A stretch of 32,033 bases of DNA. Source: Parvularia atlantis. Lineage: Eukaryota; Opisthokonta; Rotosphaerida. The notes below the pieces were generated by a model. That model was not told where the DNA came from, made no database searches, and worked only from the letters and a program-made list of their open reading frames with translations. The stretch spans positions 1 through 32,033 of the forward strand of contig CALSCO010001500.1 in assembly GCA_943704415.1 (NCBI GenBank), in the 5' to 3' direction. Numbering within the stretch: the first letter of the stretch is position 1; each line of letters opens with the position of its first letter. Positions 21,994 to 31,232 of the stretch are shown in pieces. Both the position numbers and the translations under genes were made by a program.

Positions 21994-23367
21994 ATGTGGA
22001 AGGCAGCCGCCGGTCAGAACGTCAAGGCCTCCGCGGCCGCAGCCGACGACGACTGGGACACGGACCCGGACTTTGTTGTTGCGTCTGCGCGGATCGATCC
22101 CCGCCCTCCCCAACGCGCTCAACGACGCGCTGCGTGCGCAGAACGACGTGAGCGAGAAGGAGCAGCGCAAGGGCGCCAAGACGGTCGAGGGCTCGATCAA
22201 GCCCAAGGACGCGATCGACGTGACGCAGCTGCGCTCGCAGGTCGTGAGCAAGAACGAGGAGACGGTCAAGAAGGAGTACACGGCCAAGGGCACGTTCGCG
22301 GCCGGCTACGGCGGCAAGTTTGGCGTGCAGACGGACCGCTTCGACAAGGCGTGCGCCCGCGCAGCACACGCGCCCCCGATCGGGCTGACCCGTGGCCCGC
22401 AGTCGGCCGTCGGCTACGACTCGGTCACGCCGCCTGGGCCTGCGCACTCGTCCGTGCCAAAGTACGAGAAGCCGACCGTCGTCTCGGCCCCGGCCAGCTC
22501 GATCAAGAGCAAGTTTGGTGCGCTGCGACGGCTTTCGATGGGTACATACACGCGCAGCTGACTTTGCCCGCTCGGGTTGTCTCCAGAGCAGCTCGGCGCC
22601 GGCGCCGGTGCCGACAAGGCCGCGCAGGACAAGATCGCGCAGGAGCGTGCGGCCCGTGCCGAGAAGGAGCGCGCCGAGCGCGAGCGCGTCAAGAAGGAGC
22701 AAGAGGCGCAGCTAGCCAAGGACAAGGCCGCGCGCGAGGCCGAGACCGCGGCCAAGGCGGCGGCCAAGGCCGAGGCGGACGCGCGCAAGGCGGCCGAGGC
22801 CCAGGCCCAGGCCGAGGCGCAGGCCGCGCACGCGCAGCCCGAGGAGCCCGCTTACGAGGAGCCGCAGCAGCAGTACGAGCAGCCGCAGGAGCCGGCCTAC
22901 GAAGAGCAGCCGCAGGAGCCGGCCTACGAAGAGCAGCCGCAGGAGCAGGCCTACGAGCAGCCGCAGGAGACGTACACCGAGGCGGTGCAGGGTGCGCGCT
23001 CGGCTTGGGCTGTTTAACCGCTTACCATGCTTCGTCTGCAGAGGCGCCGGCTGCCGGCGGCCAGGGCATGACCGCCATGGCGTTGTACGAGTACGAGGCC
23101 AGTGCGTCACTGGCCCGCTGGGACGCGCGCGTGCCTACGCACCACTCACACGCGCGCGACGTGGCAGATGGCGACGACGAGCTGCCGTTCAAGGAGGGCG
23201 AGCTGATCAGCAACATCGAGGTGCGCCTGTGCGCAGTGTGGCAGCCCCGCGTGACTGGCATGCGCATGTGCGCGGCCGCTCAGATCATCGACGAGGGCTG
23301 GTGGCGGGGAGAGTGCAACGGCCGCTGGGGCATGTTCCCGTCCAACTACGTCCAGGCCAACCAGTGA
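21994..23367 (+). CDS. CTTN: Cortactin (Arp2/3-binding, F-actin-binding, SH3)
   Basis: Cortactin activates Arp2/3, stabilises branch points and recruits SH3 ligands at the cell cortex. It starts MWKAAAGQNVKASA (human MWKASAGHAVSIA). The N-terminal acidic Arp2/3 motif DDDWDTDPDFV is intact, then NDVSEKEQRKGAKTVEGS. One full cortactin repeat follows: GYGGKFGVQTDRFDK|SAVGYDSV. Human cortactin has six and a half, so this is a minimal form. Next come PTVVSAPASSIKSKF, an Ala/Glu/Lys helix (KAAREAETAAKAAAKAEADA), and a Tyr/Pro/Gln region with repeated EQPQEPAYE units. The C-terminal SH3 domain has MTAMALYEYEA, ADGDDELPFKEGELISNIE and DEGWWRGECNGRWGMFPSNY (ALYDY, WW and PSNY hallmarks). The stop is at 23365-23367. 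Introns include one with a GC donor (22349-22402) in the middle of the repeat. The order and completeness of domains make this identification secure. Confidence 0.95.
   Translation: MWKAAAGQNVKASAAAADDDWDTDPDFVVASARIDPRPPQRAQRRAACAERREREGAAQGRQDGRGLDQAQGRDRRDAAALAGREQERGDGQEGVHGQGHVRGRLRRQVWRADGPLRQGVRPRSTRAPDRADPWPAVGRRLRLGHAAWACALVRAKVREADRRLGPGQLDQEQVWCAATAFDGYIHAQLTLPARVVSRAARRRRRCRQGRAGQDRAGACGPCREGARRARARQEGARGAASQGQGRARGRDRGQGGGQGRGGRAQGGRGPGPGRGAGRARAARGARLRGAAAAVRAAAGAGLRRAAAGAGLRRAAAGAGLRAAAGDVHRGGAGCALGLGCLTAYHASSAEAPAAGGQGMTAMALYEYEASASLARWDARVPTHHSHARDVADGDDELPFKEGELISNIEVRLCAVWQPRVTGMRMCAAAQIIDEGWWRGECNGRWGMFPSNYVQANQ
22349..22402 (+). other. GC-AG intron inside the cortactin repeat
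   Basis: The exon ends DRFDK at AAG|GCGTGC and the next begins SAVGYD. Animal cortactin repeats read DR.DKSAVGF without interruption. Using the nearby GT shifts the frame, so GC is the donor. The intron is 54 nt with GCTGAC before the acceptor. Confidence 0.8.
22876..22965 (+). repeat. 27-bp coding minisatellite in cortactin (EQPQEPAYE units)
   Basis: Near-identical 27-bp units encode EQPQEPAYE, with a shortened variant at each side. Each unit places a Tyr next to acidic residues (AYEE). It lies between the helical region and the SH3 domain, where animal cortactin carries its Src phosphorylation sites. Confidence 0.85.
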
Positions 23368-24567: not shown

Positions 24568-26234
24568 ATGGCGTGGACACAGACGACATTGGCCGTTGGG
24601 CTGCTCGCTGTGGTCGTCGCGCTCGCGCTCGGCGGCGCGCGCCTCGACTGCGGCGACGCGCAGCGGGCTGTGGCGGGTGCAATCTGCACGGCGTTGCGCG
24701 GTGATGGCGCTGTCGCGACCGCGGCTGAGCACCGCGAGTGGGCGCGGATGACGGCACTGATCGGTGCGGGCGTCGATCGATGCGTCGCGGCGCCTCGCTC
24801 ACGCGCGACGGCGGTGGGTAGTCGGCGGCGCGTCGGTCAACGCGCGCGACACGTGGGGCAAGACCGCGCTGTACTACGCCAGCAAGCACGGCGAGGCGCC
24901 CTGGGTCGATGTACTGCTCGCGGCCGGCGCGGCCGTCGATCTCCCGTCGATTCAGGGCAGCACGCCGCTGATGGTCGCGGCCGCGGGCGGGCACGCGCAC
25001 GTCGTGGTGCGGCTGCTGTCTGCGGGCGCGCGCTCGGACGCGATCAACTGCGAGGGCAAGGACGCCGCCGCGTTTGCGGCCTCGTCGGCCGTGCGGGCGC
25101 TGTTGACCGACGCGGACGTCTCCGGAACGACGACACACACAAGCCAAAACGACGATCGCACTCTCGAGGCGTGCACGGCAGCGGGGCGCGAGCGAAACGG
25201 CGCCACTTGGATGCGCCTCGGCGAGCTGGCGAGCCGCGAGCGCCTGCGGCTGATGTCGTTCAACGTGCGCTACGGTACGCACGGCGATTGCACAACGGTC
25301 GCGTGGGCGCACCGGCGGCACCGCATCGGCGCTGCGCTGTGGACGCACGCGCCAGACGTTGCCGGGCTGCAGGAGGTGCTGCCAGACCAGCTCGCGGACC
25401 TGCGGCAGCTGCTGGCGGCGGCCGGGTATGAGGCGGTCGGCGTGGGGCGCGAGGACGGTCGCAGCGGCGGCGAGCACGTGCCGGTCTTCTTCGACGCGCG
25501 CCGGTGGGAGCTGCTGGCCGCGAACACGTTCTGGCTGTCTGAGGTGCGTGCGCGTTGCTCCAAGTTTCTGCTCAGCGTGACGCGCGCGACAGACGCCCGA
25601 CAGGCCCGGCAGCCACAGCTGGGACGCGTCGATCCCGCGCATCGCGACGGTCGTGCGGTGCATGGCTATGTGCGTGCCAGTGTGGCACATTTTGACCCTG
25701 CCTGCGTGCAGGCTGCGGCAGCGTGAGGGTGAGTACGCTCGGCACCTCGTTGTCATCAACACGCACCTCGACCACGAGGGGGCGCGCAGCCGCGTCAAGG
25801 CCGCGCAGATGCTGCGCGAGACCGTCGCGCGCGAGCACGCCGCATGCGACGCGCCCTGCGTTGTGGCCGTCGTCGGCGACCTCAACGACGGGCCGAGCTC
25901 GTCCACTTACGCTGAGCTGACTGCGACAGACCGCAACGCGCACCTGCTCGACGCGTTCAACGTCTCTGTTGTGCCGCCGACGGGGCCGGCGCGCTCGTTC
26001 ACCGGGTGCGCGTGCATGCATGCCGCTGCGTCGGACGTGACTGATGTGTCGCGCACGCTCAGCTTCTTTGGCGAGGTCGGTGCTGGCGCCGAGCGCATCG
26101 ACCACGTGCTGCTCGCGGGCGCGGCGGCAGCACACGTCGCGGTCGTGCACGCGGGCGTGGTGGCACTAGACGACGGCGACACCGCACTGCCCTCGGACCA
26201 CCGGCCGGTGCTCGCCGACCTCGTGTGGCTGTGA
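24568..26234 (+). CDS. Ankyrin-repeat plus endonuclease/exonuclease/phosphatase (EEP) fold protein with N-terminal signal/anchor
   Basis: This is a predicted metal-dependent nuclease or phosphodiesterase. It starts MAWTQTTLAVGLLAVVVALA then LGG, a signal peptide or signal anchor. An ankyrin region follows: after an intron starting near 24763, GGASVNARDTWGKTALYYAS, then AGAAVDLPSIQGSTPLMVAA and AGGHAHVVVRLLSAGARSDA. The EEP domain begins RLRLMSFNVRYGTHGDC (catalytic Asn), then DVAGLQEVLPDQLADLRQLL (Glu), GVGREDGRSGGEHVPVFFD, LVVINTHLDHEGARSRVKAA (His), VAVVGDLNDGPSSSTYAELT (Asp and Asn) and LPSDHRPVLADLVWL* (Asp-His). All catalytic positions are present. The substrate is open: the EEP fold covers DNases, sphingomyelinases, inositol phosphatases and deadenylases. 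The order of motifs resembles bacterial-type YafD-like EEP enzymes. The stop is at 26232-26234. The gene is divergent from the KDEL protein by 36 bp. Confidence 0.88.
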
Positions 26235-26614
26235 CTTGCCTCGGAGGTCGTTGTGCCGACGGTTTTGTGACGGGCCACACGTGGACGAGCCTGTGCGCCG
26301 CCGCCGTCCGCCGACTGCGCTGATCCTCCGCACCCGCAGAGCGACATGGACGTGGCCTCCCCGGGCCCGCCGGCGTACGAGTGGATCGGTAGCACAATGC
26401 GCCCGACACCACCGAGCTCGACATGACCGGCCCGGCCGGCGATGGTCGTGCTGGCGAGCTCGGCTCGCAACATCGGCCACGCCCACGACGAACGGCCCGG
26501 TGAGGCGCGGCAGGCCCATGATGAGGCCTGCCGCGCCACGCCGTCGACGGCGGGACGGGTGCGCGCGATCGATCGGCAATGATGTGAAGCAGACTGAGCA
26601 ACACGCGGCGCGTT
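26235..26614. other. Convergent intergenic region, no gene seen
   Basis: About 380 bp lie between two convergent stop codons. Frames stay open in places, but I see no family-like peptide, RNA gene or repeat. Confidence 0.5.
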
Positions 26615-29003
26615 TCACTTCTTCTTGCCCGCGGCCACGCGCGCCTGCCGCGCCAGGTCCTTGTTGCGGAAGATCATCTTGTCGATCTTCTGGCGCGCCT
26701 GGATGTCGCGGCAGACGTAGCCGAGCTTCTGCAGCGTCGTGTTCTTCTCAAGTGACGCGGCAAGCTTCGTCTCTGCGTGCGCGCAACAGTCTGAGACCGC
26801 GGCCCCGACCGCAGCCGGACACACAGCGCACCCGACTTGGCCGCGATCACCGTGCGCTGGTTGTTGAGCAGCATCTCCTTCACGGACGTGTTGACGAGGA
26901 GCATGTCGGCGAGCGCCTCGAGGCCGCCGCTGCCGAGGCTGCGTTGGGTGCGTCCGCCCGTCAGACACGCGCACGCTGCACATCGCGGGGCCAGCAGCAG
27001 CGCACAAGTTGCTTTCAAGGTTGACGATGCCAATCGACTTGTTGCCCGAGAGGCCCTTGGCGATCGCGATCGCGCCGCGCTCGTGGATGACCGCGTTGGC
27101 CGCGGCAAACTCGATCACGTGGTCGTGCTTGCTCAGCGCGTTGCCCAGGCGCACCTGCTGGTCCTCCGTAAAGTACCTGTGCGCACGCACGCACGTCCTG
27201 TGAGCCGTGCGCTGCGCGTGCGTGCGGTGACGCACTCGGCGTTGTTGAGGTTGATGCGCACGCAGTGCGGGTCGTTCGTCTCGAGCTGCCTGATGATCTT
27301 CTCGATCTGCTCCGTCTGCTCGCGCTTGGCCTCGTCCTTCAGCGTCGGGTCGTTGACGATGACCGCGCCGGTGGACACCAGCTTTGGGTCGGCCTTGACA
27401 ACGGCGGGCTGGGCAAGAGTGTTGGGCATCGCCACGGCAAAGTGAAGCACACGCACCTTGTCGTCCACGCCGAGGTCCTCCATCAGCTCCTTCAGCTCCT
27501 CCTCGGTGAGGCCGTCCAGGTCAAGGTCGTCGTCGCCGCCGCTGGAGCTCGCCTTGGGTTTGGCCGTCGTGGGCGACGATGCGGCCGGTGCGGCGGTCGG
27601 TGCGGCGGCCGGTGCGGCGGTGGTCGGGCTGCACGCGGCGTTCAGCCGGGTTGCGCACGGCCTGCAAGCGCGAGCGCACCTCACAAGCTCGCGTTGCGAG
27701 CCGCGCTCACGCTCGCGCTCGAGGCGGCGCTTGTTCCGGTACGCCTCAACGTCGGCTGGCGTCTCCTCCTGCGGTGCCGCTGCCACGACTGCTGCTGCCG
27801 CGGCGTCTGCTGCCGCAGCGTCTGCCTCCTCCTTGGCCTTGTGTGCGGCCACGGCCTCCTCCTCCTCCTGCTTGGCCTTGCGCTCCGCAGCAGCCGTAGC
27901 AGCGGCGGCCGCGGCCTCCTCCTCCTCCTGCTTGGCCTTGCGCGCAGCCTCTGCCGCCGCGGCCTGCCGCTCGGCCGCGCGCCGCCGTGTGCGCTCGGTC
28001 GCCTCGGCGTCGGCCTTAGCCTTGGCCTCGCGCTCCTCGTCTTCCTGGTTGGTCGACGCTGCCTCGGTGCGCTTGCGCTCTGCCTCCTCGTCCTCCTTGG
28101 CCTTGCGCTCAGCGTCGTCGCGCTCAGCCTCCTCCTTGGCTTTGTGCTCCGCCTCCTCCTTGGCTTTGCGCTCAGCCTCCTCCTTGGCTTTGCGCTCAGC
28201 CTCCTCCTTGGCCTTGCGCTCACGCTCCTCGCGCTCGGCATCGCCCGTAACCATAGGCTCAGACGCTGTGCCGTCGTCGCCGCGGCCGGCCATGCGCGCC
28301 GCACGCCGCGCCGCCAGCCGCGCCGAGACGCTGTCGGCCGCGTCGTCTGCGCTGGCCGCTGCTGCGGGCTTGGCGCCAGCGCTGCCACCGCGCAGATCGC
28401 CCTCGGGCCGCGGCACATCGGTCGTGCGCACGGCCTCCTCGAGCTTGGCCGTCGTGAGGTCGTCCTTGTTGTCGATGGTGAGGATGGCGTGGTGGTACTG
28501 CCACGTGCCGCGTGCCGCGTCCCGTGAGAACGGACGGACGGGCGGTTGCGCGGACGGGGCCGGCGCACCACAAAGTGGCCCGCCACCGCCCGCTTGTGCA
28601 CCGACGCCTTGGCCTTCTGCAGGCTCGTGGCGCTGGCCGGGTCGACAAAGACGACGATCACGTAGTCGTCTGCGAGCTTGACGTACCCGAACGAGACCGG
28701 GCCTTGGGACGTGCGCTCAGTACCAGCCCGCGCCACCCGCGCGCCACGCCACCCTCGAGCTTGGCGCGCATCTCGTCGACGCCGCCCGCGCCCGACGCCG
28801 TGATCGACAGCTTGTTGCGCGTCTCGCCGTAGCCCATGAGCAGCCTGTTTGCGTCGACGTGGTCGTCGCCGTGTGCATCAGGCCGATCACGCACACGACA
28901 GGCGACGGCGACGCCAGCGGCCGCACCAGTTCTCAGGCGCGGCGCCGCGGACCTTCTCGTACACCTCGAGCAGCTGCGGATCCGTCAGGTCACACGTGGC
29001 CAT
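26615..29003 (-). CDS. ADF-H domain + ER/K helix + tropomodulin-like LRR fusion protein
   Basis: This is a predicted actin regulator with an unusual architecture. It starts MATCDLTDPQLLEVYEKVRG (ATG at 29003). The ADF-homology domain of drebrin-like/coactosin type follows across introns: LLMGYGETRNKLSITASG, VSFGYVKLADDYVIVVFVDP, SLQKAKASVHKRAVAGHF and YHHAILTIDNKDDLTTAKLE. The same open frame runs on through VRTTDVPRPEG into a long helix of ERKAKEEA units and other Glu/Lys/Arg/Ala repeats (about 28250-27690). Then LTEEELKELMEDLGVDD resembles the first tropomyosin-binding helix of tropomodulin. The C-terminal part matches tropomodulin LRRs: EQIEKIIRQLETNDPHCVRI then NLNNAE, HDHVIEFAAANAV, NKSIGIVNLESN, EALADMLLVNTSVKEMLLNN and FRNKDLARQARVAAGKKK*. 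The stop is at 26615-26617. Tropomodulin caps actin pointed ends and ADF-H binds F-actin sides. Both halves are joined by continuous reading frame, not by guessed splicing. Confidence 0.87.
28125..28215 (-). repeat. 24-bp coding repeat (ERKAKEEA units)
   Basis: Tandem near-identical 24-bp units (TCCTTGGCTTTGCGCTCAGC on the + strand) encode ERKAKEEA on the minus strand. The pattern of alternating acidic and basic residues at i,i+4 is that of a stable single alpha helix rather than a heptad coiled coil. Confidence 0.85.
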
Positions 29004-29180
29004 GGCGCAGGGGTGCAGCTGGCTGCGCGGGTGGCTCGGTGCGGACGGAACGACGGACTAGAAAACGGAAAGTGCCCGCAACGCGCTGTGTACATCGCAT
29101 TTGTACGGTGACTGTCAACGGTGGCACCTACGGCGACCTCGTCGGTTTGACTCCTCGCCGCCTTCTTCTTCGCCGCGCAG

Positions 29181-31232
29181 TCAGTCATAAACAGAGGCGA
29201 TCGACTGGATCTGGTTCAGGTCCTTGAGCACGTGCGTCGGCCGGAACGAGAAGCTTGCCACGTCCTCCAGTTTGGTGATGCCCGTCAGCACGAGAATCGT
29301 GTCCATCCCGGCCTATGCGCGGCGAGCGTTTTGCTCAGCGTTCGCGCGCCCGCCTCTCGCACGCACCTCGAGCCCGCCCACGATGTCCGTGTCCATGCGG
29401 TCGCCGATCATCACGCACTCGGACGGGTCCGCGTGCAGCTTGAGCGCGGCCTGGCGGAACATCCACGCGTTGGGCTTGCCGCAAAAGTATGCCTGCCTGC
29501 CCGTGGCCTTCTCGATCGGCGCGCACAGGGCGCCGCATGCGGGCGAGAAGCCGTAGGTCGCGTTGTCGACCGCGTCGCAGTTGGTCCCGATCAGCTTCGC
29601 GCCGCGGTAGACGAGGTTGATCGCCTTTTCGATCTGGTCAAACGTGTAGTCGCGCGTCTCGCCCACGACGACGTAGTCCGGATTGTCGTCCTGCGCATGC
29701 CTGTGTGAGCATCACTCGGCACGCGGGGGCGCGCGGCACGACGTCACCGTAATCGAGTAGCCCACGTTGAGCAGCGCGGAGCGCAGACCACTGTCGCCGA
29801 TCACGTACGCGCGGCCGTTCGGCGTCTGAGCACCGAGCGCGTCAGTCGATGGCACATGCGCACTCGCACGCCACGCGCACCTGCGACTGCAGAAACATCG
29901 CCGTTGAGATGGCCGACGTGTGGAACACGTCCGGGCCGACCTCGAGGCCTGCGCAGGCGCCGCGCACGGCATCAGCCAACCGCACAGTGCACGCACGCAC
30001 GCACCATGACACGCGCACCTAGCCTCTTCAACTTGGCCTGGATCTCGAGCGGCGTGCGCGTGGACCCGTTCGTGAGGAACATGTACTTTTTGCCGGTCGC
30101 CTCGAGCCACTTGATCTGCGCGCGTCTCCGCGTGAGCCGGCGGAGCGAGGCACGCACAGACGGCAGCGCGCGGCGGCGCACAAACTCGACCACGCCCGGG
30201 AGCAGCCGGTCGCCGTGGTACACGACGCCGTCCATGTCGAGGATGAAGCACTTCTTGAGCGGGATGCCCTCGGCGCCGCGGCGCTCGCGCCTGCGCGCGG
30301 CTGCGTGCGCAGTGTGAGGTGTGCGTGGCGTGGCGTGACAGCAGGAGCGTACCCGACTTGACCGCGTCGATCAGCACCTCGTCGGCCTTGTGCCGGTCGC
30401 CGTCCTCGAGCACCTCGGCGTAGTAGTTCTGCGATCGCGTGGCACACGCGCACACTCAGCACCAGCCAGCAGCCAGCACTTGATGCCGCGCGCACCCGCA
30501 CGCGCGACGACAGCGCGATCAGCTTCTCCTGCGTGCCAAATACGGACAGGTCCTCGACGTGCTGCTTGAGGAACGTGGCCTTGAGCGGCTCGGTTGGCAC
30601 ATTCCTGCCGGCGCGACTCAGCTGAGCGGTGCACACACTCCGCAGGTATGCGCGCACTTGTCGTGCTTCTTGAGGATCTTGGCCACGGCCGTGTAGTTGA
30701 GCGTGCCAAACTCGCGCAGGAGCTGCAGCTCGACAAAGAGCGCAATCAGCTCCTGCCGCAGCTCCTTGGTCGCGGTGGCGTGGGTCGAGCTGGCGGTGGC
30801 GGTCTGCGGTGCCGCGCTCAGCACACTGTCAGCGCCCCGATTGCCCGCGCGCGCGTGCCTTCTCGACGAGCAGGTCCAGCTGGCCCGCCAGCTGCCGCTG
30901 CTTGGCCGCGAAAAAGTCCTCGGCACGGCGCACGTCGGCCGTGAGCTTGTCGAGGAAGCGCGAGCGCTGCTGCTGCACGCCCGCGACGGCATCGCTGCTG
31001 CCGTCCGACGCGAGTGGCGACAACAGCTGCTGCTGCTGCTGCTGTTGCTGCTGCTTCTGGTGCTCGGCGAGGAGGCGGATCTCGCGCTTGAGCAGGTTGT
31101 ACTCGATGTACTGGTCGCTCCACTCTGGGTTGGTGGCCGCGAGCAGGCTCAACCCTGCCGTGCACGCCGTACGTGCGTGTCGGCGCGACGCAGCCACCAC
31201 GCAAAGTCAGCGCCGGCCGCACCAAACTTCAT
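29181..31232 (-). CDS. SPX domain fused to NagD-type HAD phosphatase
   Basis: This is predicted to be a phosphate-responsive phosphatase. It starts MKFG|LSLLAATNPEWSDQYI, the conserved SPX start. The SPX domain continues EYNLLKREIRLLAEHQ, a poly-Gln/Ser insert, SRFLDKLTADVRRAEDFFAA, TKELRQELIALFVELQLL and LNYTAVAKILKKHDK|NVPTEP. The inositol-pyrophosphate pocket residues are present as the YNLLK Tyr/Lys pair and the KILKKHDK lysine cluster. After TFLKQHVEDLSVFGTQEKL and a linker (NYYAEVLEDGDRHKADEVLI) the frame runs in phase into KKCFILDMDGVVYHGD (HAD motif I). Then come KKYMFLTNGSTRTP (II), GRAYVIGDSGL, PDYVVVGETRDYTFDQIEKA, SPACGALCAPIEKATGRQ, CGKPNAWMF (III Lys) and CVMIGDRMDTDIVGGLE (IV). 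The PACGALC/GKP/GD series is closest to bacterial NagD/UmpH (class IIA, C2 cap), whose known substrate is UMP. The stop is at 29181-29183. There are about ten introns. Confidence 0.9.

Follow-up and report, generated by a model that had tools for sequence, protein, structure and literature searches.

To our knowledge, tropomodulin, the best-known regulator of actin filament pointed ends, has been studied almost only in animals. Among the proteins with an ADF-H domain, drebrin, the drebrin-like protein (Abp1) and coactosin normally end in an SH3 domain or a disordered tail, and in drebrin the ADF-H domain is followed by a single alpha-helix. As to the pointed-end regulators, excerpts of one published account of tropomodulin-1 (Tmod1) state that its ABS1 binds the first actin subunit while ABS2 binds at the interface of the first three, that capping depends critically on residues 164-186, where ABS2 begins, that it also requires ABS1 along with the N-terminal segment of ABS2, and that Tmod1 finds pointed ends only when both its N-terminal half and ABS2 are present (PMC4571291). 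Leiomodins, according to the same excerpts, possess neither ABS1 nor TMBS2 nor the segment corresponding to 164-186, and they nucleate instead (PMC4571291).

The window analysed here, a stretch of DNA of 32,033 nucleotides, is one contig (C370) of an assembly of 16.25 Mb in 616 contigs, in which the genome searches were carried out. The gene model confirms, at the level of sequence, that a gene in this window encodes one protein composed of an ADF-H domain, then an ER/K helix, then a tropomodulin/leiomodin LRR, all joined in one reading frame. An earlier, sequence-only reading had proposed this three-part fusion, and each part is recovered: the ADF-H domain by PF00241 (E 6.8e-10), the helix with a length of 154 residues and the LRR by its best structural match (E 2.7e-23). 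That reading had also placed the gene at 29003-26615, and these coordinates agree exactly with a single nine-exon gene on the minus strand, its ATG at 29003 and its stop ending at 26615, with a spliced coding sequence of 1899 nt translating into 632 aa. The features are as follows.

26615..29003, minus strand: whole gene from ATG to stop (gene model), with eight GT-AG introns and GC3 of 0.83-1.00 in every exon
29003-28927, 28844-28753, 28702-28572, 28497-27680, 27628-27457, 27408-27236, 27176-27006, 26938-26832, 26772-26615, minus strand: exons 1-9
28435..28970, minus strand: ADF-H domain (cofilin/drebrin/coactosin-type), residues 12-121, over four exons (PF00241)
27680..28497, minus strand: exon 4, with the C-terminal end of the ADF-H domain and the entire charged helix in one unbroken frame
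27781..28242, minus strand: predicted ER/K single alpha-helix, residues 186-339, 154 residues, about 23 nm (charge pairing; AlphaFold2)
27629..27679, minus strand: intron 4, 51 nt, in frame, the frame being kept whether it is spliced or retained
27472..27510, minus strand: acidic LTEEELKELMEDL helix, resembling residues 22-34 of Tmod1 (start of the tropomyosin-binding helix) by eye only
27409..27456, minus strand: intron 5, 48 nt, in frame (gene model)
26633..27318, minus strand: tropomodulin/leiomodin LRR (ABS2), residues 461-627, exons 6-9, with the C-terminal cap helix (PDB matches, alignment)

The eight introns are short (48-82 nt), all with GT-AG borders, and six of them share the donor GTGCG. 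For intron 3, an alternative donor (GTG/GTGCGC) would add one valine, for a protein of 633 aa, and it gives a slightly better match to PF00241 (E 3.9e-10, versus 6.8e-10 with the standard donor). Introns 4 and 5 are each divisible by three in length, and exons 4-6 are in the same frame, so that the join between the helix and the LRR is intact whether these introns are spliced or retained. There are no stops in the 1262 nt of exons 4-6 (28497-27236), and under a first-order Markov null such a stretch stayed open in 21 of 5000 trials; as one antisense frame is likewise open across these exons, openness alone is weak evidence for coding. The case for a single gene rests on one frame showing homology at each of its ends and on the high third-position GC in all nine exons (0.83-1.00, with second-position GC at 0.33-0.56). 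The ADF-H domain had been described as running into the helix in one open frame; this is true of exons 4-6, which share a frame, but not of the domain as a whole, whose four exons differ in frame. A bacterial-type gene was excluded by the introns and by a sigma-70 scan of 26500-29300, which returned no sites.

The ADF-H domain scores 39.2 bits with PF00241, against a cut-off of 22.4, and covers profile positions 2-124 of 125. A Pfam scan of the whole 632-aa protein returned no families at E<=1, which we attribute to filtering by the low-complexity helix, and no NCBIfam match above cut-off was obtained for the protein. A six-frame PF00241 search of the genome itself found seven ADF-H places, and the fusion gene was not among them, because its domain is split across four exons. 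The PDB sequences nearest to the fused domain are those of drebrin (5y1z, E 0.0014) and the drebrin-like protein (1x67, E 0.0015); thus in its Pfam domain and its nearest structures the protein is akin to drebrin, Abp1 and coactosin, while it differs from them in ending in a tropomodulin LRR and in a short loop before strand 4, which lacks the lysine of human coactosin in an alignment that includes truncated sequences. A lysine at this place is important for F-actin binding. The alignment comprised human coactosin, three of the seven genomic ADF-H places (L001, L003 and L006), all of which carry K before strand 4, and a fragment of drebrin that ends before the lysine; L002, L004, L005 and L007 were left out. 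In L002 (twinfilin-like) and L007 (GMF-like) no lysine motif is visible by eye, and the lysine comparison is therefore one with side-binder-like members only. The fused domain has kept its basic helix-3 segment, SLQKAKASVHK, which resembles LQRAKTGTDK of coactosin. One of the aligned places, L003 (C531:4537-4692, minus strand), is an ordinary coactosin gene in which the lysine before strand 4 is retained, and it offers a useful reference for the fused domain from within the genome.

The charged stretch that follows contains only 3 large hydrophobic residues in 155. Its i,i+4 charge pairs are attractive in 51 cases and repulsive in 5, and the net of 46 was reached in none of 2000 shuffles; spacings of 1, 2, 3 and 5 show no excess, a spacing of 6 shows a weaker one (4/2000 shuffles), and the corresponding counts at spacings of 7 and 8 are 137/2000 and 2000/2000. 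A coiled coil in place of a single helix is ruled out, as there is no hydrophobic heptad stripe. AlphaFold2, given only the single sequence of the exon 4-6 frame as it reads in the window, predicts one helix of 154 residues (residues 86-239 of the submitted piece), with 10-residue means of pLDDT of about 73-94, and of 91-94 across piece residues 121-230, within a piece that is poorly predicted overall (mean pLDDT 63.5, pTM 0.26). The long charged helix noticed earlier is thus well founded, in i,i+4 pairing beyond all shuffles and in the predicted helix. At 0.15 nm per residue its 154 residues would span about 23 nm, and it may act only as a spacer.

When the last 233 residues were compared with the PDB, 36 sequences matched at E<=1, the best ten being leiomodins, tropomodulins and chimeras (2.7e-23 to 3e-14), while the best match outside of tropomodulin/leiomodin, to a different LRR protein, had an E of 1.6e-7. 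The top match is ABS2 of leiomodin-1 (4z79, E 2.7e-23), and Tmod1 (8f8t) matches at E 4.3e-20. The alignment with Tmod1 is ungapped over 167 residues, 51 of which are identical, and includes the cap helix; with Lmod1, 56 of 162 residues are identical. Of the 64 positions invariant in Tmod1, tropomodulin 1io0, Lmod1 and Lmod2, 36 are kept. When the LRR was used as a probe of the genome itself, it found four pieces of the fusion gene and one generic LRR (at C486, E 9.5e-4), and so no second tropomodulin was seen in the assembly.

The remainder of the protein departs from Tmod1. The tropomodulin N-terminal family, PF03250, which comprises TMBS1, ABS1 and TMBS2 and in a control covers residues 3-143 of a tropomodulin-1 (P0006), matches neither end of the fusion protein at E<=10, and it has no match in the genome either, which is not proof of its absence there. 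Measured start to start, the LTEEEL helix and the aligned LRR lie 48 residues apart, versus 157 in Tmod1, a stretch too short to accommodate ABS1 and TMBS2, and the segment preceding the LRR shows no clear alignment to the pointed-end element of Tmod1 (164-186). What the protein has in addition is the ADF-H domain and the ER/K helix. The LTEEEL helix itself had been called tropomodulin-like, and by eye it does resemble residues 22-34 of Tmod1; a PDB search with 35 residues, however, gave 10 hits at chance level with no tropomodulin among them, so the search does not identify it as a tropomyosin site, and we dropped it as proof of one. Leiomodins (Lmod1, Lmod2), which provide the best-scoring LRR, likewise have neither ABS1 nor TMBS2, nor a clear pointed-end element at the N-terminal side. 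They possess a C-terminal proline-rich region and a WH2 domain, whereas the fusion protein, which stops five residues past the aligned LRR, has neither, but has an ADF-H domain at its N-terminus.

The reading that we prefer, with a probability of roughly 0.45, is that the LRR makes its contact with actin at the pointed end or close to it while the ADF-H domain, on its stiff arm, makes a second contact, and that pointed ends are in this way stabilised or spatially organised. The LRR would dock, in the manner of Tmod and Lmod, on actin subunits of the pointed end or its vicinity, and would by itself hold the filament end weakly, since ABS1 and TMBS2 are missing. The ADF-H domain, kept at a distance by the stiff helix, would then supply a second contact in replacement of the lost sites, be it with the side of the filament up to about eight subunits away (the rise of actin being 2.75 nm per subunit), with a neighbouring filament or with another actin-linked partner, and the net effect would be on the stability or the spatial organisation of pointed ends. 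A second contact is plausible given that Tmod1, in the excerpted account, needs its N-terminal half together with ABS2 for pointed ends (PMC4571291). The reading also fits with a genome that has a tropomyosin and in which the LRR probe met no second tropomodulin. The short loop without lysine suggests that side-binding by the ADF-H domain may be lost. The sequence-only reading had gone further and combined side-binding, pointed-end capping and a helix acting as a ruler in one molecule; the domains for this are present, but the space too small for ABS1 and TMBS2, the chance-level LTEEEL helix and the missing strand-4 lysine all speak against the full combination. A more elaborate proposal, in which the ADF-H domain on its 23-nm rigid arm replaces the missing ABS1/TMBS sites and makes the protein a fungal-side molecular caliper, anchoring the pointed end at a defined place of the filament or network, we consider unlikely; were it true, the tropomodulin LRR would be older than animals and would have first acted without the tropomyosin-binding half.

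The protein could also be a nucleator or a side-binder in the manner of leiomodin, its LRR recruiting two or more actin subunits and its ADF-H domain acting, via the long arm, as WH2 does in leiomodin. Like the leiomodins, it is without ABS1 and TMBS2 and shows no N-terminal pointed-end element of ABS2 that can be recognised, and its best PDB scores are 86 bits with Lmod1 and 79 with Lmod2, versus 76 with Tmod1; in the 35 columns that separate the compared tropomodulins from the leiomodins it is Lmod-like in 10 and Tmod-like in 4. However, 21 of these columns fit neither, the Lmod-like letters may be merely ancestral, and ADF-H domains of the drebrin/coactosin class bind filaments, not monomers, so we regard this as possible but somewhat unlikely. 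The lack of room for ABS1/TMBS2, together with the lack of a clear counterpart of 164-186, leads us to favour the contact made by the LRR plus the ADF-H domain over such a nucleator.

If the short loop and the lysine missing before strand 4 are given more weight, along with the moderate PF00241 score (39 bits), the ADF-H domain might no longer bind filaments at all and be a GMF-like or docking module, leaving the LRR as the sole contact with actin. This appears rather improbable: the basic helix-3 segment is kept, much as in coactosin, and the case for the loss is thin, resting on one alignment with truncated sequences. Finally, it is barely credible that two adjacent genes, or an artefact of the gene model or assembly, have been read as one. 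Open frames do come cheaply here, with GC at about 70% and the antisense frame open over exons 4-6, and in-frame Met codons in these exons, beginning with those at 28293 and 28254, could initiate translation of a protein devoid of ADF-H; but within exon 4 a single frame covers both the helix and the end of the ADF-H domain, the frame of exons 4-6 runs on into the first LRR residues with splicing or without it, and GC3 is of the coding type in all nine exons.

As to relatives, a homologue search with the whole protein (words from residues 418-632) gave 2081 candidates, none at E<=1e-3, and missed known tropomodulins in the database as well; a search with the unspliced frame of 527 aa (residues 385-500) gave 576 candidates and no homologue. 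A search of the same database led by an alignment with Tmod1 found 1881 hits among 7990 scored candidates, and among the best 120 of these hits all were from vertebrates wherever the organism was named. Eukaryotic tropomodulins are thus in the database and were not reached by the whole-protein search, presumably through an exact-word rule, and the empty orthologue searches are accordingly not evidence of absence. Viral contigs (86 pattern matches) and GTDB contigs (146 pattern matches) provided no relatives. In the titles and abstract openings of the open-licence literature, neither the ADF-H/ER-K/tropomodulin-LRR architecture nor a fungal tropomodulin was found, and in the excerpts of one article (PMC6988429) tropomodulin is named only in a reference title. 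Judging from the sequences and from this literature, the individual domains are known while their combination appears not to have been described, in keeping with the earlier remark that no protein of this layout was known, which literature of this scope cannot prove. A non-animal protein in which this LRR comes without ABS1/TMBS2 and is linked by a rigid arm to an ADF-H domain would demonstrate that the LRR can join other regulators; the protein would be a natural test of which parts of tropomodulin are required for capping or nucleation and would help to date the origin of pointed-end control.

From its content, the genome appears to be that of an opisthokont, probably an early-diverging fungus. 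Its EF1A carries an insertion beginning with NMPWFKGW, which we take to be an opisthokont mark. Its tropomyosin (L013, C50:17411-17845, minus strand) is of the short class, with 158 aa as joined by eye, and matches PDB tropomyosins of 161-162 aa, presumably the fungal class, at E 1.4e-24 and 2e-24, while tropomyosin alpha-1 chains match at 1.1e-14 or worse; a second tropomyosin-like gene (L014, C452:465-785, minus strand) is below the Pfam cut-off. Zn_clus has four matches above cut-off, one of them separated by about 1 kb from the only match to Fungal_trans, and a Zn2Cys6 cluster beside Fungal_trans is a typical layout of fungal transcription factors. Glucan synthase (PF02364) has no match in the genome, which is not proof of absence but speaks against a typical fungus; SH2 (PF00017) and integrin beta (PF00362) have no match either, with the same reservation. 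Two of the features that bear on this placement are located as follows.

C399:15421-16764, minus strand: Zn2Cys6 cluster and Fungal_trans (L028, L030), about 1 kb apart
21994-23367, plus strand, in the window: cortactin, with an MWK start, an acidic DDDWDTDPDF motif, one repeat and a C-terminal SH3 domain

The cortactin gene, 3.2 kb from the fusion gene, is complete, has seven exons and encodes 335 aa, with one repeat (PF02218, E 2.6e-12) and an SH3 domain (PF00018, E 1.8e-16); its model requires a GC-AG donor at 22349 for one intron, and no other PF02218 match is listed for the assembly. Most known cortactins come from animals and lineages closely related to them. The sequence-only reading had looked toward unicellular holozoans, an affinity not favoured by the Zn2Cys6 cluster near Fungal_trans and the short tropomyosin, although the adjoining cortactin and the lack of a glucan synthase match point the other way. 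Other neighbours in the window were assigned by eye: ankyrin-like repeats followed by an endonuclease/exonuclease/phosphatase-like protein (about 24836-26234, plus strand), a HAD gene resembling 4-nitrophenylphosphatase or phosphoglycolate phosphatase directly upstream of the fusion gene (about 30370-29183, minus strand), and the start of an SPX-domain-like protein (LLAATNPEWSDQYIEYNLLKREI; about 31206-30829, minus strand).
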